Part shown: piece after piece, positions 1,378-10,850 of the stretch | Position numbering within the stretch: position 1 is the stretch's first letter | Layout: each line of letters begins with the position of its first letter | NCBI GenBank assembly: GCA_013361595.1 | Contig: JABFXT010000276.1 | Location: 1-16,770 of the forward strand | Origin: Nocardia sp. | Lineage (GTDB): Bacteria; Actinomycetota; Actinomycetes; Mycobacteriales; Mycobacteriaceae | Direction: 5' to 3' | Length of the DNA: 16,770 bases | The notes under the pieces: model-generated | What the model saw: the letters and a program-made list of their open reading frames with translations, nothing else | Database searches by the model: none | What the model was told of the DNA's origin: nothing | Translations under genes and position numbers: made by a program

Positions 1378-1409
1378 CGCACCCGGCCGGCCCGGGCCGG
1401 CCGGGTGCG
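1378..1409. terminator. Perfect 32-bp GC palindrome after the RHH gene
   Basis: Every base from 1378 pairs with its partner to 1409 (16 + 16, centre at 1393/1394), with arms beginning CGCACCCGGCCGG. It starts 8 nt after the RHH stop and ends 46 nt before the lhr start. In RNA it would form a very stable hairpin. There is no T-tract, as is common for actinobacterial terminators. It could equally be a cruciform or a protein-binding site. Confidence 0.55.
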
Positions 1410-1442
1410 TTCCGCGCCCACTCCGATGTCGGTGCCCCGGTG

Positions 1443-1448
1443 CACACT
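1443..1448 (+). promoter_or_regulatory. Candidate -10 box (CACACT) for leaderless lhr
   Basis: CACACT followed by 7 nt and GTG (1456) resembles the TANNNT-N6/7-start arrangement seen at other genes of this window, although the first T is missing. No Shine-Dalgarno precedes the GTG. Confidence 0.3.
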
Positions 1449-1455
1449 GGGACCC

Positions 1456-4400
1456 GTGACCGAGTTCTCCGCCGCCACCCAGCAGTGGTTCGACGGTGCC
1501 TTCCCCGCGCCGACGGCCGCGCAGCTGGGAGCGTGGCAGGCGATCGCGGCCGGTGAGCACACCCTGGTGATCGCGCCCACCGGGTCGGGCAAGACCCTGT
1601 CGGCGTTCCTGTGGGCCATCGATCGGCTGGCCACGGGTGATCCGCCGGATTCGGGTACCTCGGTGCTGTACATCTCCCCGCTCAAGGCGCTGGCCGTGGA
1701 TGTCGAACGAAATCTGCGGGCACCGCTGGTGGGGGTTCGGCAGACCGCGCGCCGCCTCGGCCTGCCGGCACCGGAGGTCAGCGTCGGCGTGCGCTCCGGT
1801 GACACCACCGCGGCGGAGCGCCGGCGGCTCCAGCGCACCCCGCCCGATATCCTCATCACCACGCCGGAATCACTGTTCCTGATGCTCACCTCCGCGGCTC
1901 GGGACACACTGCGCACCGTGCGCACCGTCATCGTCGACGAGGTGCACGCCATCGCCGGTTCCAAACGGGGGTCGCATCTCGCGCTCTCCCTCGCGCGGCT
2001 CGACCGGCTCACCGAACGGCCGGCGCAGCGGATCGGGCTGTCCGCGACCGTCCGGCCGCCGGACGAGGTGGGCCGGTTCCTGGTGGGGTCGGCGCCGATC
2101 ACCATCGTGTCCCCGCCCGCGCCGAAAACCTTCGACCTCTCCGTACGGGTCCCGGTGCCGGATATGACCGAGCCGGGCGATTCGGACCAGCCCGGATCGC
2201 TGTGGCCGCATGTGGACGAGGCGATCGTCGAACTCGTCCTCGACCACCGCTCCTCCATCGTCTTCGCCAATTCGCGCCGGCTCGCCGAACGCTTGACCGC
2301 CCGGCTGAACGAGACCTACGCGGAGCGGCTCGGTGAGTCCGTCGATACGGCCCACGCCCCACCGGCCCAGCTCGGCCCGTCCACCGAGGTCGTCCACGGC
2401 GCCGAACCGTTGCTGGCACGCGCCCATCACGGGTCGGTGAGCAAGGAGCAGCGGGCCCTCATCGAAGACGACCTCAAGAGCGGCCGGCTGCGCTGTGTGG
2501 TGGCCACCAGCAGCCTCGAACTCGGTATCGATATGGGAGCGGTGGATCTGGTGGTCCAGGTCGAGGCCCCACCCTCGGTCGCGAGTGGGCTCCAGCGCAT
2601 CGGCCGGGCCGGGCACCAGGTGGGTGAGATATCGCGGGGCGTCCTGTTCCCCAAACACCGCACCGATGTGGTGCACTGCGCGGTGGCGGCCCAGCGAATG
2701 CTGTCCGGACAGATCGAAGCGTTGAAGATACCCGCGCATCCGCTCGATATCCTCGCCCAGCAGACCGTCGCGGCCTGTGCGCTGGACCCCCTGGATGTCG
2801 ACGCCTGGTTCGAGACGGTGCGCGGCACCGGCAGTTACGCGTCGCTGCCCCGTTCCTCCTACGAGGCGGTACTCGATCTGCTGGCGGGCCGATACCCCTC
2901 CGACGAATTCGCCGAGCTGCGGCCACGCCTGGTGTGGGATCGCGACGCCGGCACGCTCACCGGCCGGCCCGGAGCCCAGCGATTGGCGGTGACCTCGGGC
3001 GGCGCGATACCCGACCGCGGCATGTTCGCGGTGTACATGGTCGGGGAGAAGGCTTCCCGGGTGGGCGAACTCGACGAGGAGATGGTCTACGAATCCAGGG
3101 TCGGGGATGTATTCGCCCTGGGCGCCACGAGCTGGCGGATCGAAGACATCACCTACGACCGCGTACTGGTGACCCCCGCGTTCGGCCAACCCGGGCGACT
3201 GCCGTTCTGGCACGGCGACTCCCTCGGTCGCCCGGCCGAACTCGGCGCCGCGCTGGGTGAATTCGTCCGGCGCGCCGGTTCGCAGACCTCGCCGGCGGCC
3301 CTGACCGAACAGACCACCGCCGCCGGACTGGACGACAACGCCACCGCCAATCTCCGGGCGCTGCTGGAGGATCAGCGCACCGCGACCGGCCGGCTGCCCA
3401 CCGACCGGACCCTGGTGGTCGAACGTTTCCGGGACGAGCTGGGCGACTGGCGGCTGGTCCTGCATTCGCCCTACGGCCTGCCGGTGCATGCGGCCTGGGC
3501 GCTGGCCGTGGGTGCCCGGCTGCGTGAACGTTTCGGCGTCGACGCCGCACCGAACGCCTCCGACGACGGCATCGTGGTGCGGCTCCCCGACACCACCGAC
3601 GAACCGCCGGGCGCCGAACTGTTCGTCTTCGAACCGGACGAGATAGACGAACTGGTCACCGAACAGGTCGGTGGGTCGGCATTGTTCGCGTCCCGTTTCC
3701 GGGAGTGTGCCGCCCGCGCCCTGCTGCTGCCGCGCCGCGACCCCGGCCGCCGCGCACCGCTGTGGCAACAGCGCCAGCGGTCCGCCCAATTGCTCGATGT
3801 GGCCAGGAAATTCCCGGAGTTCCCGATCCTGCTGGAAACGGTTCGCGAATGCCTGCGCGATGTGTACGACCTGCCCGCACTGCGGGATCTGCTCACCGAG
3901 GTGGCACGTCGCCGAGTGCGGCTGGTCGAAGTGGAGACGGCCACCCCGTCACCGTTCGCCGGCGCGCTGCTGTTCGACTACATCGGCCAGTTCATGTACG
4001 ACGGTGACAGCCCCCTGGCCGAACGCCGGGCCGCGGCACTCTCCCTGGATTCGGCACTGCTCGCCGAACTCCTCGGCCGGGTCGAATTGCGGGAGCTGCT
4101 GGACAGCGAGGTCATCGCCGAAGTCGAATCGGAACTCCAGCGCCGCGCGCCGGACCGGCAGGCCCGGGATACCGAAGGTCTGGCGGATCTGCTGCGGTTG
4201 CTCGGACCGATCACGGCGGCCGAAGCCCGGCAACGCTGCCGGGCGGATCCCACGGATTGGTTCGCCGAATTGGCCAAGGCCCGGCGCGCACTCGAGGTGT
4301 CCTATGCGGGTGAGGTGTGGTGGGCCGCGATCGAGGATGCCGCCCGGCTGCGCGACGCCCTGGGTGTCCCGCTGCCGATCGGCACCCCGGCGGCATTCAT

Positions 4401-6006
4401 CGAACCGGTCGCCGACCCGCTCGGTGATCTGGTCGCCCGATTCGCCCGCACCCACGGGCCGTTCACCACGGAGTCGGTCGCGCACCGCTTCGGGCTGGGT
4501 ACCGCGGTCGCGGGAGCGGCGCTGCATCGCCTGGCCACCGAGAAACGGGTGGTCGAAGGCGAGTTCACGCCGGAGACCGGCGGTTCGGAATGGTGCGATG
4601 TCCAGGTGTTGCGCCGGTTGCGGCGGCGCAGCCTCGCCGCCGCGCGACACGAGGTGGAACCGGTGTCCACCGGCACCTTCGGCCGGTTCCTCCCCGACTG
4701 GCAGCACATCGGCACCGGTGAACTGCGCGGTATCGACGGGGTGGCGACCGTAGTCGAACAACTGGCCGGAGTGCCGATTCCGGCGTCCGCGTGGGAATCG
4801 CTGGTGCTGCCGGCCCGGGTCCGCGACTACTCACCCGCTTTCCTCGACGAACTCATGGCCACCGGCGAAGTCCGCTGGTCCGGCCACGGCGTCATCAACG
4901 CCAAAGACGGCTGGATCGCCCTGCACCCGGCCGACGGAGCTCCCCTCACGCTGCCGCCGGCCGACGAACCCGAGTTCACCGAGGTCCATCTCGCGCTGCT
5001 CACGGCCCTCGGCGCCGGGCCCGCGCGCACCGCGCCACCGGGCCGGCTGCCCGACGGCGACTCCACCGCACCGCCGGTCCCGCACGGCGGTGGCGCCTAC
5101 TTCTTCCGGCAGCTCTCCGATGCGACGGGTCTGCTCGACGACACCGGAGTCGCGGCCGCCCTGTGGGAGCTGGTCTGGTCGGGTCTGGTCTCCGGCGATA
5201 CCTTCGCCCCGGTGCGAGCCCGGCTGTCCGGATCCACCCGGACCCCCACCGCGCACCGGACCCCGCGCCGCGCGCCGCGCGGTCGCACTTACCTGCCCCG
5301 CCCGGCGATGCCGAGCCGTTCCGGGCCGCCGACCGTGGCCGGTCGCTGGTCGCTGCTGCCCGACCGAGCGACCGACAACACCGTTCGCGCCCACGCCACC
5401 GCCGACCTGCTGCTGGAACGCTACGGCGTCCTCACCAAGGGGTCGGTACAGAGCGAGGGCGTGCCCGGCGGTTTCGCGTTGCTGTACCGCGTACTCAGCG
5501 AATTCGAGGACCGGGGCCGCTGTCGCCGCGGGTACTTCGTCGATTCACTCGGCGGCGCCCAGTTCTCCACCACCGATGTGGTGGACCGGCTGCGTTCCTT
5601 CGACGGGGACCGCCGGCCCGCGGGCGCGGCGCTGGCCCTCGCGGCCTGCGATCCGGCCAACCCCTACGGTGCCGCCCTGCCCTGGCCCAAAACCGAGGGC
5701 GGGGCCGGCCACCGGCCGGGCCGGAAAGCGGGCGCCCTGGTCGTCCTGGTCGACGGCGAACTCGTCCTCTATCTGGAACGCGGCGGCAAAACGTTGCTCA
5801 CCTGTACCGAAGATCCCGCCGCCCGGCAGGCCGCGGCGGGCGCGCTGGCCGATCTGGTCCGGACCGGGCGGGCCGATTCGCTGGTCATCGACCGGGTCGA
5901 CGGCGAATCGGTGCACGGCAACACCTTCGCCGCCTTCCTCACCGAAGCCGGTTTCGCCGCGACTCCGCAGGGCCTGCGCCTGCGACGTGCGGTCGGCCGT
6001 CCATAG
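1456..6006 (+). CDS. lhr: Large ATP-dependent DNA helicase Lhr
   Basis: This 1516-aa protein belongs to superfamily 2. Mycobacterial Lhr is a single-strand-DNA-dependent ATPase that translocates 3' to 5' and unwinds duplexes, including RNA:DNA hybrids, and is linked to DNA repair. Visible motifs are Walker A PTGSGKT (41-47), SPLKAL (74-79), the DEVH box (161-164), GLSATV (194-199) and the motif VI stretch QRIGRAGH (380-387). The winged-helix and Lhr-core regions follow to roughly residue 860. The long C-terminal extension typical of bacterial full-length Lhr continues to the end and includes a basic Arg/Pro-rich linker near 1260-1300. The length fits mycobacterial Lhr (about 1,510 aa). The frame is open back to a GTG at 1405, but that lies inside the palindrome, so GTG 1456 is preferred. 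nei2 follows on the same strand, the order also seen in M. tuberculosis. Confidence 0.95.
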   Translation: MTEFSAATQQWFDGAFPAPTAAQLGAWQAIAAGEHTLVIAPTGSGKTLSAFLWAIDRLATGDPPDSGTSVLYISPLKALAVDVERNLRAPLVGVRQTARRLGLPAPEVSVGVRSGDTTAAERRRLQRTPPDILITTPESLFLMLTSAARDTLRTVRTVIVDEVHAIAGSKRGSHLALSLARLDRLTERPAQRIGLSATVRPPDEVGRFLVGSAPITIVSPPAPKTFDLSVRVPVPDMTEPGDSDQPGSLWPHVDEAIVELVLDHRSSIVFANSRRLAERLTARLNETYAERLGESVDTAHAPPAQLGPSTEVVHGAEPLLARAHHGSVSKEQRALIEDDLKSGRLRCVVATSSLELGIDMGAVDLVVQVEAPPSVASGLQRIGRAGHQVGEISRGVLFPKHRTDVVHCAVAAQRMLSGQIEALKIPAHPLDILAQQTVAACALDPLDVDAWFETVRGTGSYASLPRSSYEAVLDLLAGRYPSDEFAELRPRLVWDRDAGTLTGRPGAQRLAVTSGGAIPDRGMFAVYMVGEKASRVGELDEEMVYESRVGDVFALGATSWRIEDITYDRVLVTPAFGQPGRLPFWHGDSLGRPAELGAALGEFVRRAGSQTSPAALTEQTTAAGLDDNATANLRALLEDQRTATGRLPTDRTLVVERFRDELGDWRLVLHSPYGLPVHAAWALAVGARLRERFGVDAAPNASDDGIVVRLPDTTDEPPGAELFVFEPDEIDELVTEQVGGSALFASRFRECAARALLLPRRDPGRRAPLWQQRQRSAQLLDVARKFPEFPILLETVRECLRDVYDLPALRDLLTEVARRRVRLVEVETATPSPFAGALLFDYIGQFMYDGDSPLAERRAAALSLDSALLAELLGRVELRELLDSEVIAEVESELQRRAPDRQARDTEGLADLLRLLGPITAAEARQRCRADPTDWFAELAKARRALEVSYAGEVWWAAIEDAARLRDALGVPLPIGTPAAFIEPVADPLGDLVARFARTHGPFTTESVAHRFGLGTAVAGAALHRLATEKRVVEGEFTPETGGSEWCDVQVLRRLRRRSLAAARHEVEPVSTGTFGRFLPDWQHIGTGELRGIDGVATVVEQLAGVPIPASAWESLVLPARVRDYSPAFLDELMATGEVRWSGHGVINAKDGWIALHPADGAPLTLPPADEPEFTEVHLALLTALGAGPARTAPPGRLPDGDSTAPPVPHGGGAYFFRQLSDATGLLDDTGVAAALWELVWSGLVSGDTFAPVRARLSGSTRTPTAHRTPRRAPRGRTYLPRPAMPSRSGPPTVAGRWSLLPDRATDNTVRAHATADLLLERYGVLTKGSVQSEGVPGGFALLYRVLSEFEDRGRCRRGYFVDSLGGAQFSTTDVVDRLRSFDGDRRPAGAALALAACDPANPYGAALPWPKTEGGAGHRPGRKAGALVVLVDGELVLYLERGGKTLLTCTEDPAARQAAAGALADLVRTGRADSLVIDRVDGESVHGNTFAAFLTEAGFAATPQGLRLRRAVGRP

Positions 6007-7205: not shown

Positions 7206-8939
7206 TCAGCCGTCGGTGGGCACCGGCTCCAGGATCTCCGGCCGCGGTTCGGGGGCGGCGATACGCAGCGCGTCGGCCGAGGCGTCGTCGGGCTGGGTCT
7301 GCGAGCGGACCTCGGCGTCCACCCGGGCGAGATAGGTCCGGATCTCCCGGTCGGTCTCCGTATCGCTCCAGCCGAGCACCGGGGCGATGAGCCGGGCCAC
7401 CTCTTCGGCGCATTCGGCGCCGCGATGCGGGTATTCGATGGAGATCCGGGTACGTCGCGCGAGCACATCGTCGAGATGCAACGCACCCTCCGCGGCCACG
7501 GCGTACACCGCTTCCACCCGGAGATAGGACGGCGCCGCCGTGATGGGCTGCCGGAGATCGGGCCGGTCGGCGGCCAATGCCATGACCTCGTCGATCAGCG
7601 AACCGTAGCGGTCCAGCAGATGCTTCACCCGGTACGGGTGCACCCCGTACTCCTCGGCCAGCTGGACGGTCTGGTTGACCAGCGCGAAATATCCGTCGGC
7701 TCCCAGCAGCGGCACCTTCTCGGTGATCGAGGGCGAGACCCGGGCCGGGATGTCCTGGGCGGCCTCGTCCACCGCGTCGTAGGCCATCACCCGGTAGGTC
7801 GTGTATTTTCCGCCCGCGATCGCCACCAGACCCGGCGCGATCCGCGCCACCGCGTGTTCACGCGAGAGCTTCGAGGTCTCGTCGCTCTCCCCGGCCAGCA
7901 GTGGCCGCAGGCCCGCGTACACCCCGTCGATATCGTCGTGGGTCAACGGCGTGACCAGTACCTCGTTCACCCGGTCCAGCAGGTAGTCGATATCGGCTTT
8001 GGTGGCGGCCGGATGGGCCAGGTCGAGATTCCAGTCGGTATCGGTGGTGCCGATGATCCAGTGCGCCCCCCACGGGATCACGAACAGTACCGAGGTGGAG
8101 GTCCGCAGGATGATCGCGGCATCGCTGACGACCCGGTCGCGCGGGACGACGATGTGCACGCCCTTGGACGCCCGCACATGGAACCGGCCCCGCTGCTGGG
8201 ACAGCGCCTGTACCTCGTCGGTCCACACCCCGGCCGCGTTGATCACGACGTGTCCCCGCACCTCACCGGTGGTGCCGTCCTCGCTGTCGCGCACCTGTAC
8301 GCCGACGACCCGGTCGGCTTCCCGCAGGAACCCGACCACCTGGGTGGACATCCGGATGACCGCCCCGTAATGGGCGGCCGTGCGGGCGACGGTCATGGTG
8401 TGCCGGGCATCGTCGACCACCGTGTCGTAGTAGCTGATCCCGCCGATCATCGAGTTGCCGCGCAGTCCCGGAGCCAGTCGCAATGCCCCGTGGCGGGACA
8501 GATGACGCTGTCCCGGAACCGATTTCGCGCCGCCCATGGTGTCGTAGAGGAAAAGTCCCGCCGCGACGTAGGGCCGTTCCCAGGCGCGCCGGGTGAGGGG
8601 GTAGAGGAAACGCAGCGGTTTCACCAGGTGCGGCGCCAGACGCGACATCGACAGTTCGCGTTCCCTCAGCGCCTCGCGAACCAGACCGAATTCGAGCTGC
8701 TCCAGATACCGCAGACCACCGTGGAACATCTTGGACGAGCGGCTGGAGGTCCCCGAGGCGAGATCGCGGGCCTCCACCAACGCCACCTTCAGTCCCCGGG
8801 TGGCGGCGTCGAGCGCGATTCCGGCCCCGACCACACCGCCGCCCACCACGATCACATCGAAGTGATCCTTGTTCAGACGGTCCCATGCGGCGCGGCGCTG
8901 ATCGGGTCCGAGAAACTGCGTTCCGGGCTGAATGCTCAT
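7206..8939 (-). CDS. glpD: FAD-dependent glycerol-3-phosphate dehydrogenase
   Basis: This 577-aa membrane-associated flavoenzyme oxidises sn-glycerol-3-phosphate to dihydroxyacetone phosphate and passes electrons to menaquinone. The N-terminus carries the FAD-binding Rossmann motif (FDVIVVGGGVVGAG, about 27-40). The family signature SSRSSKMFHGGLRYLE follows at about 65-80, then the substrate-domain segment IPWGAHWIIGTTDTDW, and a C-terminal cap domain ending in an acidic-Pro tail. The length matches mycobacterial GlpD2 (about 585 aa). The frame extends upstream to 9035, but that extension is made of tandem repeat. The ATG at 8939 has a good ribosome site (GGAGGG) 6 nt upstream. The start overlaps the stop of the last short leader ORF by ATGA, so expression may depend on translational coupling. 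It is divergent from glpK, which supplies its substrate. Confidence 0.95.
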   Translation of the reverse strand: MSIQPGTQFLGPDQRRAAWDRLNKDHFDVIVVGGGVVGAGIALDAATRGLKVALVEARDLASGTSSRSSKMFHGGLRYLEQLEFGLVREALRERELSMSRLAPHLVKPLRFLYPLTRRAWERPYVAAGLFLYDTMGGAKSVPGQRHLSRHGALRLAPGLRGNSMIGGISYYDTVVDDARHTMTVARTAAHYGAVIRMSTQVVGFLREADRVVGVQVRDSEDGTTGEVRGHVVINAAGVWTDEVQALSQQRGRFHVRASKGVHIVVPRDRVVSDAAIILRTSTSVLFVIPWGAHWIIGTTDTDWNLDLAHPAATKADIDYLLDRVNEVLVTPLTHDDIDGVYAGLRPLLAGESDETSKLSREHAVARIAPGLVAIAGGKYTTYRVMAYDAVDEAAQDIPARVSPSITEKVPLLGADGYFALVNQTVQLAEEYGVHPYRVKHLLDRYGSLIDEVMALAADRPDLRQPITAAPSYLRVEAVYAVAAEGALHLDDVLARRTRISIEYPHRGAECAEEVARLIAPVLGWSDTETDREIRTYLARVDAEVRSQTQPDDASADALRIAAPEPRPEILEPVPTDG

Positions 8940-9007
8940 CGTCGTCCCTCCCTCGAAGCAGATACATACGGCCCGTAGAAGCCGCAGCAAAGGCGGAGGT
9001 ATCGCAT
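8936..9007 (-). CDS. Leader ORF 1 (proximal), coupled to glpD by ATGA overlap
   Basis: A 23-codon ORF starting MRYLRLCC and ending SASREGRR. Its ATG (9005-9007) lies 7 nt after a GGAGG in the repeat unit, and its TGA (8936-8938) overlaps the glpD ATG by ATGA. The glpD ribosome site lies inside its last codons. An ATG six bases further upstream (9011-9013) is in frame but too close to the Shine-Dalgarno. No function is known for the peptide. It may act only to couple translation, or it may be a chance ORF of the repeat. Confidence 0.5.
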   Translation of the reverse strand: MRYLRLCCGFYGPYVSASREGRR

Positions 9008-9075
9008 CAGCATCCCTCCCACGAAGCAGATACATACGGCCCGTAGAAGCCGCAGCAAAGGCGGAGGTATCGCAT
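9007..9075 (-). CDS. Leader ORF 2 (middle), TGATG-coupled to leader ORF 1
   Basis: A 22-codon ORF from repeat copy 2, identical to leader ORF 1 over its first 18 codons and ending WEGC. Its stop TGA (9007-9009) shares one base with the ATG of leader ORF 1, giving the TGATG arrangement typical of translational coupling. Its own ATG is preceded at the same 7-nt distance by GGAGG encoded in the previous ORF. It contains two adjacent Cys codons near codon 7. Confidence 0.5.
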   Translation of the reverse strand: MRYLRLCCGFYGPYVSASWEGC

Positions 9076-9143
9076 CAGCATCCCTCCCACGAAGCAGATA
9101 CATACGGCCCGCGGAGGCCGCAGCGAAGGCGGAGGTATCGCAT
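9075..9143 (-). CDS. Leader ORF 3 (distal), TGATG-coupled to leader ORF 2
   Basis: A 22-codon ORF in the diverged repeat copy, or 23 codons if the adjacent ATG at 9146 is used. It differs from leader ORF 2 at three codons (Cys to Arg, Phe to Leu, Tyr to Arg) and ends with the same SASWEGC. Its TGA (9075-9077) overlaps the next ATG. It is the first of the series; a GAGGAG lies about 10 nt upstream in unique sequence. An in-frame extension to 9323 runs through the promoter region and is not believed. Confidence 0.45.
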   Translation of the reverse strand: MRYLRLRCGLRGPYVSASWEGC

Positions 9144-9183
9144 CATGCGGATTCGACTCCTCGAGTGCGCGATCGGCTGGGTC

Positions 9184-9249
9184 GGCTGTCGGTTTGCGCG
9201 TTCGGAGGCCAGCCTATCGGGCACGGCCGGGCGAAGCCCGTCGACAGCC
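9184..9249. promoter_or_regulatory. Separated inverted repeat GGCTGTCG / CGACAGCC in the glpD-glpK intergenic region
   Basis: Arms at 9184-9191 and 9242-9249 are perfect 8-bp inverse copies about 58 bp apart and bracket the proposed glpD -10 box. Between them lies a small hairpin, CGGGC-GAA-GCCCG (9228-9240). It could be a two-site operator for a glycerol regulator, or chance in GC-rich DNA. Apart from the promoter elements listed separately, I see no other feature in the unique 9147-9353 sequence. Confidence 0.25.
9211..9216 (-). promoter_or_regulatory. Candidate -10 box (TAGGCT) for the glpD leader transcript
   Basis: TAGGCT on the minus strand fits TANNNT and would start transcription near 9204, about 60 nt before leader ORF 3. 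No convincing -35 is visible. Confidence 0.3.
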
Positions 9250-9300
9250 GGGCGCGGCCGGGCCCGAATCGGAGTATGCCGAGGGAGACCACCGGCGCAC

Positions 9301-9323
9301 GTGACCGCTGCGACACTCGTCAC
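9301..9323. promoter_or_regulatory. Inverted repeat GTGAC-N13-GTCAC over the glpK -35 region
   Basis: GTGAC (9301-9305) and GTCAC (9319-9323) are inverse copies with centres 18 bp apart, ending 18 nt before the proposed glpK -10 box. The position suits an operator, but the arms are short. Confidence 0.25.
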
Positions 9324-9341
9324 CGATCCGCCGATTTACGT

Positions 9342-9347
9342 TAGCCT
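9342..9347 (+). promoter_or_regulatory. Candidate -10 box (TAGCCT) of a leaderless glpK transcript
   Basis: TAGCCT fits TANNNT and is followed by exactly 6 nt and the glpK ATG (9354). No Shine-Dalgarno precedes the ATG, which supports leaderless initiation. Confidence 0.45.
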
Positions 9348-9353
9348 CCTGCC

Positions 9354-10850
9354 ATGCGCTATGTGGCCGCCGTCGACCAGGGCACGACTTCGAGCAGGTG
9401 CATCCTGTTCGACCGGCAGGGACAGATCGCGGGCGTGGCCCAGCGTGAGCACGAGCAGATCTTCCCGAAGCCGGGCTGGGTGGAGCACGATCCGGAAACA
9501 CTGTGGCGCAACACCGAATTCGTACTCGGGGCGGTACTGGACGAAGCGGGGCTCACCGCCACCGATATCGCGGCGGTAGGGGTCACCAACCAGCGCGAGA
9601 CCACCGTCGTCTGGGAACGCGACACCGGCCGGCCGATCCACAACGCCATCGTCTGGCAGGACACCCGCACCGACCGGCTGTGCACCGAACTCGCCGGAAC
9701 GCAGGGCGCGGACCGTTACTCCGACCGTACCGGCCTGCCCCTGTCCACCTACTTCTCCGGCCCCAAAGTGCGCTGGATCCTCGATACCGTGCCGGGAGCC
9801 CGGGAGCGCGCCGAGGCGGGCGAACTGTGTTTCGGCACGGTGGACAGCTGGCTGCTGTGGAAGCTGACCGGGCAGCACATCACCGATGTCACCAATGCCT
9901 CCCGCACCCTGCTGATGGATCTGCGCACCCTCACCTGGGACGAGCGGATCTGCGCGGAGATCGGCGTGCCCACCGCGATGCTCCCGCAGATCCGCAGTTC
10001 CTCGGAGGTCTACGCGGAGATCGGCGCGGGGCCGCTGGCCGGGGTGCCGGTCGCGGGGATTCTCGGCGACCAGCAGGCCGCCATGTTCGGTCAGGCCTGC
10101 CTGGCTCCGGGCGAGGCCAAGAACACCTACGGCACCGGCAACTTCATGCTGCTCAACACGGGTACCACCCCGGTGTTCAGCGAGCACGGCCTTCTCACCA
10201 CGGTGTGCTATCGGCTCGGCGAGGAGCCGCCGGTGTATGCCCTGGAGGGGTCGATCGCGGTCACCGGTGCACTGGTGCAGTGGTTCCGGGACAATCTCGG
10301 CATCATCTCCGCGGCGCCGGAGATCGAAGATCTCGCGCGCACGGTGGAGGACAACGGCGGCGCGTATATCGTGCCGGCCTTCTCCGGGCTGTTCGCGCCC
10401 CGCTGGCGGCCCGATGCCCGCGGGGTTGTCGCCGGTCTCACCCGGTTCGTCACCAAGGCCCATCTCGCCCGCGCGATCCTGGAGTCGACCGCTTTCCAGA
10501 CCCGCGAGGTGATGGACGCCATGCGCGCCGACGCCGAGGCCCGGTCGCTGGATCTGGCGGCGACCGCGCTCAAAGTCGACGGCGGAATGGTCGACAACGA
10601 TCTGCTCATGCAGTTCCAGGCCGATATCCTCGACCTGCCGGTCGTCCGCCCGCTGGTCAACGAGACCACGGCGCTCGGTGCCGCGTACGCGGCCGGGCTG
10701 GCGGTCGAATACTGGTCGGGCACCGACGATATCCGGGCCAACTGGGCCGCGGACAAGACCTGGACTCCCGCCATGCCCGATACCGAACGCGAATCCCGGC
10801 TCCGCGACTGGAACAAAGCGGTCGAACGCACCTACAACTGGGCGGACTGA
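9354..10850 (+). CDS. glpK: Glycerol kinase (FGGY family)
   Basis: This 498-aa cytoplasmic kinase phosphorylates glycerol with ATP to sn-glycerol-3-phosphate. The N-terminal phosphate loop DQGTTSSR (8-15) opens the first FGGY domain. Glycerol-contacting residues match E. coli GlpK: Arg81-Glu82 in NQRETTV, Tyr133 in STYFSGPK, and Asp239-Gln240 in [10 protein letters not shown]. The C-terminal FGGY domain includes [18 protein letters not shown]. The length equals the usual 500 aa and no key residue is missing. No glpF (glycerol facilitator) gene is in the window. The gene is divergent from glpD, so kinase and dehydrogenase form a compact glycerol module. In M. tuberculosis, by memory, glpK (Rv3696c) is far from glpD2, so the pairing here is a local difference. 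The 3' end overlaps the convergent aminotransferase gene by 19 bp. Confidence 0.96.

Follow-up and report, generated by a model that had tools for sequence, protein, structure and literature searches.

The array at the glpD start

The stretch analyzed here (the window) comprises 16,770 nucleotides of the Nocardia sp. contig JABFXT010000276.1 (assembly GCA_013361595.1) and carries, on the minus strand directly upstream of glpD, a tandem array of three 68-bp units. Each unit holds a short open reading frame (ORF), and the last of the three overlapping leader ORFs enters the start codon of glpD. With a probability of roughly 75%, we regard this array as a member of a family of short mobile repeats of Nocardia that are transparent to translation and insert at gene starts or at stop/start overlaps of the type ATGA. 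The features of the locus are the following:

8936 to 9146, minus strand: array of three 68-bp units with three overlapping leader ORFs entering glpD (sequence reading and Tandem Repeats Finder)
9157 to 9162, minus strand: GAGGAG, a native glpD-type Shine-Dalgarno sequence that now precedes leader ORF1; its counterpart in unit-free relatives is AGGAGTCG/GGAGGAG before ATG
9075 to 9146, minus strand: leader ORF1, 23 codons from the ATG at 9146 (22 from the ATG at 9143), stop within TGATG
9007 to 9075, minus strand: leader ORF2, 22 codons, stop within TGATG
8936 to 9007, minus strand: leader ORF3, 23 codons, stop within the ATGA that overlaps the glpD start
7206 to 8939, minus strand: glpD, glycerol-3-phosphate dehydrogenase, 577 aa, ATG at 8939 (NCBIfam)
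9211 to 9216, minus strand: TAGGCT, a weak candidate for a -10-like box upstream of the array; similar boxes lie upstream of glpD in several relatives
9354 to 10850, plus strand: glpK, glycerol kinase, the divergent neighbour, start at 9354 (NCBIfam)

Tandem Repeats Finder describes the array as 3.0 copies of 68 bp with 96% matches. A sequence-only reading of the window had proposed a relay of three leader ORFs with the junctions TGATG (ORF1/ORF2), TGATG (ORF2/ORF3) and ATGA (ORF3/glpD); its coordinates proved exact on re-reading, and its derivation of the 68-bp period from a 69-nt ORF minus an overlap of 1 nt is correct. The length of 22 codons that it gave for leader ORF1 holds from the second in-frame ATG at 9143 but becomes 23 from the ATG at 9146, so that two starts are possible; the spacing between GAGGAG (9162-9157) and the latter ATG is 10 nt. 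Unit 2 is a chimera: its 5' half corresponds to unit 3 and its 3' half to unit 1, from which it differs at 4 and 4 positions, while units 1 and 3 differ from each other at 8. This mosaic would fit growth of the array by slippage or unequal crossing-over. The two flanking genes are identified by NCBIfam models, glpD by NF008899 (362.1 bits, cut-off 360) and glpK by TIGR01311 (730 bits, cut-off 590). Because glpK is divergent, the copy in the window lies in a gene leader and not at an operon junction.

A dispersed family in Nocardia

The 68-bp unit is not private to glpD but belongs to a dispersed family. Used as a query, the 231-bp array region matches the window's own genome (G000, an assembly of 5.18 Mb in 908 contigs, 78% complete) at 20 places, which lie on 18 contigs. 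All 49 stretches that match an exact pattern of 30 specified core bases, in a collection of 84,980 species that possibly does not include the window's own genome, are titled Nocardia; the five named species among them are N. fusca, N. jinanensis, N. rhamnosiphila, N. flavorosea and N. carnea. As a plain DNA query, a single unit finds matches in just 3 of 60 relatives, its own genome included.

A sequence-only model of the unit (R1) was built from 73 units; strict filters applied, and scoring was limited to the 32 top-ranking candidates in each genome. R1 yields 33 matches in the window's own genome and recognizes 44 out of 150 Nocardia genomes at E <= 1e-3. The best E value lies below 1e-9 in 17 of these 44, and 16 of the 17 have at least nine matches; the other 27 genomes match more weakly. 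Across a sample of 298 genomes of the order, 16 match, six of which are Nocardia; the ten genomes outside the genus all match weakly (E 1.6e-4 to 9.8e-4). Four non-Nocardia matches were inspected (L168-L171): three have no unit-like junction and look like chance, and in L171 GGAGG and ATGA follow a poor core. Among the matches listed in a literature search of mainly open-access papers, no report of such elements in Nocardia was found. The sequence-only reading had pointed to other Nocardia genomes and to further ATGA/TGATG junctions as places where the unit might recur, and it is present in both.

Some members depart from the common form. The element L101:5792-6003 of N. jinanensis is a variant with a unit spacing of 84 bp and a different tail. 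In G017, the sole two matches are two copies of the unit core on the minus strand of L167, 67 bp apart and without TGATG junctions. The sequence directly before the first unit of L065 and of L084 resembles a unit tail (GGAG...TGA), which points to conversion or to a decayed unit of greater age. The first units in L066, L068, L082 and L092 have at their 5' end several copies of an 8-bp microrepeat, TGCGATAC; in L066 it offsets a unit of 67 bp, so that the chain of ORFs still closes.

Placement at start and stop/start codons

The placement of the family was analyzed on 141 units grouped into 65 elements, with overlapping duplicates of one locus and the G030 loci set aside. An element was scored as placed downstream when a long ORF started with ATGA, GTGA or TTGA (collectively DTGA) no more than 14 nt from where the profile match ends, and as placed upstream when it began no more than 26 nt from the stop codon of a long ORF; a long ORF has at least 100 codons, or 30 when it runs to the edge of the locus. 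By these measures 46 of the 65 elements run into a DTGA start, against 3.4% of 20,000 random positions, and 44 begin at the stop of a long ORF (8.2% of 20,000 random positions). Both ends are in place in 31 elements, compared with 0.27% of the same number of random positions. On the opposite strand of the same 65 elements, the counts fall to 0/65 downstream and 7/65 upstream. Placement at DTGA starts is thus far beyond chance.

The number of units per element ranges from one (26 elements) to eight (one element). The genes on the 3' side of ten elements were translated and named by eye, with no family search: nuoE, an ABC-2 permease, a response regulator, a CoA transferase, a P450, a mce gene, an aldehyde dehydrogenase, a NUDIX gene, panC and a proV-like ATPase. 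At L079:1630-2028, six units precede a putative response-regulator gene that starts with TTGA, and the unit junctions in the alignment are, with the exception of the first entry, TTGA as well. This arrangement is reminiscent of the senX3-regX3 setting of the mycobacterial interspersed repetitive units (MIRU).

Empty sites and copy-number history

An nhmmer search over all 30 Nocardia glpD loci finds units in four of them: three in G000 and one each in G030, G074 and G029; the other 26 have none. A further species, N. jinanensis, carries two units at glpD (L066). In the start-region table, for which 26 of the 30 loci were parsed, the unit-free relatives present an empty site with a native Shine-Dalgarno sequence and ATGA at the gene start. 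The empty site of G003 reads CCAGGAGTCGAAACCC-ATGACCATTCAG; in G074 we read CCAGGAGTCGGAACCG-ATG, then the unit, then GTGACCATACAG, an insertion of exactly 68 nt from start to start. It follows from this comparison that the native Shine-Dalgarno sequence and ATG now open the leader ORF, and that the GGAGG of the unit serves glpD.

The same contrast between carriers and empty sites recurs at five other compared loci (nuoE, ABC-2, mce, panC and proV-like), where carriers have one to five units. In 13 out of 13 unit-free cases checked, two long ORFs overlap by ATGA: at nuoE in G003, G004, G019 and G081, at ABC-2 in G080, G019, G017 and G081, at mce in G003, at panC in G019, G017 and G080, and at the proV-like locus in G003. 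Left out of this count were nuoE of G014 and panC of G004, which have no profile match and look like decayed units; the diverged units that G003, G014 and G004 carry at other loci were counted as units.

A tree of glpD (FastTree, midpoint-rooted; 27 of 31 sequences, four not having been parsed) unites the five unit-bearing species in a monophyletic clade with support 0.994. Within it, G000 with three units is sister to N. jinanensis with two, and the three one-unit species stand beside them. A single insertion, after which recombination enlarged the array in tandem, explains both the monophyly and the chimeric unit 2. Copy number varies between species at glpD (0, 1, 2 and 3) and at the five other loci, the comparison being drawn at species level.

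Translation along the arrays

The substitutions among 99 distinct, unfiltered unit cores fall evenly on the three codon positions (161, 154 and 165), and the ratio of synonymous to nonsynonymous changes in the core (93:190) matches the opportunities (34:78). The entropies of the codon positions are similar as well. The unit peptide shows no amino-acid constraint. Folding of 73 units with RNAalifold reveals no meaningful structure (-1.5 kcal/mol, six pairs, two of them with a single two-sided change), and Rfam has no match in positions 8800-9400 of the window. A scan of 8900-9400 for a sigma-70-like consensus found no promoter, such a scan being weak for actinobacteria. The TAGGCT box (9216-9211) and the similar boxes in relatives would place transcription upstream of the array, if only as a weak indication.

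It is the continuity of translation as far as the gene that seems to be preserved, rather than the number of short ORFs. We define a strict chain as a series in which each start codon overlaps the preceding stop by ATGA or TGATG, from a start near the beginning of the element to the gene. Among the 46 elements with an identifiable downstream gene, the chain reaches that gene in 40; after one random indel this holds for 28%, and after shuffling of the interior for 29%. The chain is intact in 25 of 27 elements free of frame-changing indels and in 15 of the 19 that have them, the latter compared with 34% after one further indel. For the 33 elements that also have an upstream gene stop, the chain from the true entry at this stop is complete in 28, while the two wrong frames give 8 and 16. 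Several arrays (e.g. L091, L078 and L080) are spanned by one long frame, which still ends in the start overlap of the gene itself. We consider this moderate evidence for selection on unbroken translation.

The ORF frame is also poor in stops (4 observed, 15.7 expected), which is suggestive only.

Several observations weigh against our interpretation. As two reverse frames also contain fewer stops than expected (3 vs 8.5 and 1 vs 5.0), conserved columns confound the scarcity of stops in the ORF frame. In 19 of the 65 elements there is no downstream DTGA start. For frame-shifted elements the gain is modest: reading in the true frame closes 14 of 18 chains, while the two wrong frames close 8 and 10. 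Among 68 scorable internal junctions, 30 lack the simple 22-codon hand-over and 38 are canonical. This last count also bears on the claim of the sequence-only reading that any copy number keeps the chain intact: it is valid for units of exactly 68 bp, but only 40 of the 76 intervals between units in the family have this length. Finally, no Y1 transposase was detected in seven of the repeat-rich genomes discussed below.

Proposed mechanism and alternative explanations

According to our model, the 68-bp unit inserts in sense orientation at an ATGA, which either opens a gene or couples the stop of one gene to the start of the next. A ribosome arriving from the native Shine-Dalgarno sequence or from the upstream gene would then translate a meaningless peptide of about 22 codons. 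The 3' end of the unit supplies its own GGAGG and ends in DTGA, so that the ribosome would terminate atop the next start and re-initiate, aided by GGAGG, at another unit or at the host gene. Termination-reinitiation at native ATGA/TGATG overlaps, often helped by a Shine-Dalgarno sequence, has been demonstrated by experiment in E. coli and H. volcanii (PMC6728339). Owing to the stop/start overlap and the unit's own ribosome site, the insert would be nearly transparent to translation and, given such a hand-over, nearly invisible to selection; its effect on glpD would probably be close to neutral. At glpD, one unit was probably inserted once in an ancestor of the five species; recombination between units would later have raised the number to two and three. 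The length rule 3n-1 would preserve the hand-over as copies are added.

Movement of the unit presumably depends on an enzyme that mobilizes it. The Y1 transposase family (PF01797) is present in four of 11 repeat-rich genomes (G030, G029, G115 and G110) and in none of nine others, a distribution with a chance of about 0.07. The seven repeat-rich genomes without it are G000 (78% complete), G151, G119, G113, G074, G163 and G111. Its presence in a part of these genomes is a weak hint of a possible past source, but Y1 does not explain the family. Mobility driven by hairpins, as in REP or IS200-like elements, was rejected, for RNAalifold recovers no meaningful conserved hairpin.

One alternative is that the array is retained as a rheostat, the number of units setting the translation of glpD because each hand-over loses or adds ribosomes. 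The differing copy numbers at glpD would suit this explanation, as would the fact that every unit has its own GGAGG and start. Yet the family occurs at many unrelated genes, its numbers vary at five other loci as expected of a neutral element, and the Shine-Dalgarno sequence of each unit would buffer the loss of ribosomes; we consider a rheostat speculative and unlikely. Hardly more attractive, and in our view slightly less so, is a transcriptional role in which the units carry a promoter or operator. The MIRU-containing senX3-regX3 region is reported to be able to drive senX3-independent expression of regX3 (PMC4213456). A promoter would not, however, need base-exact placement in sense orientation at DTGA (46/65 against 0/65 on the wrong strand), and the scan described above, weak as it is for actinobacteria, points the same way.

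Two explanations confined to glpD have very little left to recommend them. If the leader encoded a regulatory peptide, i.e. an attenuator specific to glpD, the short ORF with a Shine-Dalgarno sequence before glpD in five species would be expected, but the same ORF stands before unrelated genes, its codon positions vary equally with similar entropies, and neither a meaningful conserved RNA structure nor an Rfam match was found. This very improbable view is largely refuted, since the family is dispersed and its peptide is not conserved. More improbable still is a plain variable-number tandem repeat without mobility, derived by local duplication of the glpD leader. Local duplication did occur, as units that are 96% alike and the chimeric unit 2 attest; still, 26 of 30 Nocardia loci lack the one-unit insertion, and other loci carry the same unit. 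As a full explanation it is refuted by the dispersed copies.

The model also offers a reason why operons such as nuo tolerate an element of this kind: its length rule, its stop/start overlaps and the ribosome site that it brings along would let translation continue. The family, whose elements hold one to eight units and for which six loci have empty sites, forms a natural comparative series for the insertion of a repeat, its growth and its effects on translation. Some Nocardia are opportunistic pathogens.

Elsewhere in the window, an ORF of 1533 aa (1405-6006, plus strand) reads by eye, with no family search, like a large Lhr-type helicase.

Comparison with MIRU and other known systems

REP/BIME, BOX, RUP, CIR and similar families are short dispersed repeats that are probably mobilized in trans. 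The Nocardia unit resembles them in being short, dispersed and probably mobilized in trans; it is unlike them in its lack of a meaningful conserved hairpin, its sense orientation, its placement at start codons and its ORF architecture. Leaders that act by termination-reinitiation, such as that of iraD, likewise couple a short upstream ORF to a gene but are single and native, whereas the Nocardia unit is mobile, tandem and dispersed.

The closest resemblance is to MIRU. MIRU are not known to have terminal inverted repeats or a palindrome, and the Nocardia unit, judged by the RNAalifold result for 73 units, is likewise without a meaningful conserved hairpin. Both are short dispersed repeats that contain an ORF and occur in tandem. 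The ends of the Nocardia ORF overlap neighbouring stop and start codons (46/65 downstream, 44/65 upstream, 31/65 both), and the unit inserts at start codons and DTGA sites, with empty sites at glpD and five further loci. For MIRU, the portions of the literature cited here give the following picture. A 2025 review describes them as apparently mobile repeats of many mycobacteria that insert at start codons and have an internal ORF coupled with -4 spacing, a coupling that probably minimizes the effect of insertion (PMC12548453). In strain H37Rv, they measure 40-100 bp, a range that includes the 68-bp unit, and occupy 41 places, with variable copy number at 12 (PMC2734929). They underpin the strain typing of tuberculosis, yet the same paper calls their exact function not well understood. 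The units at senX3-regX3 measure 77 and 53 bp and are stated to be confined to M. leprae and the M. tuberculosis complex; the region containing them has promoter activity (PMC4213456). By our own arithmetic, 77, 53 and 68 bp all follow 3n-1, the length rule of a TGATG relay.

The differences concern the host, Nocardia, the unit of 68 bp, and the position of the window copy in a gene leader instead of an operon junction. A MIRU primer pattern matches none of 401 genomes of the bacterial family, although M. tuberculosis is not certain to be in this set or in the sample of 298. The suggestion of the sequence-only reading that the array is MIRU-like is thus well supported for architecture and insertion behaviour, the likeness being drawn from descriptions of MIRU and not from their sequence; empty sites at six loci and copy numbers that vary between species agree with it. 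All named exact-pattern matches are Nocardia, and hence we speak of a MIRU-like element and not of a MIRU.

We tentatively raise, and ourselves find it doubtful, the idea that the Nocardia family is an independently evolved counterpart of MIRU. Translation-transparent elements that consist entirely of a ribosome-relay module, target coupled stop/start codons and regenerate their own target would then have arisen more than once, and tandem growth would leave a ready-made, heritable tuning knob on host genes, glpD, nuoE and panC among them. If so, mobile elements that relay ribosomes would be a general class. As architecture, the best reading is that of a new Nocardia family of a known kind of element, which offers an independent model for the biology of MIRU.
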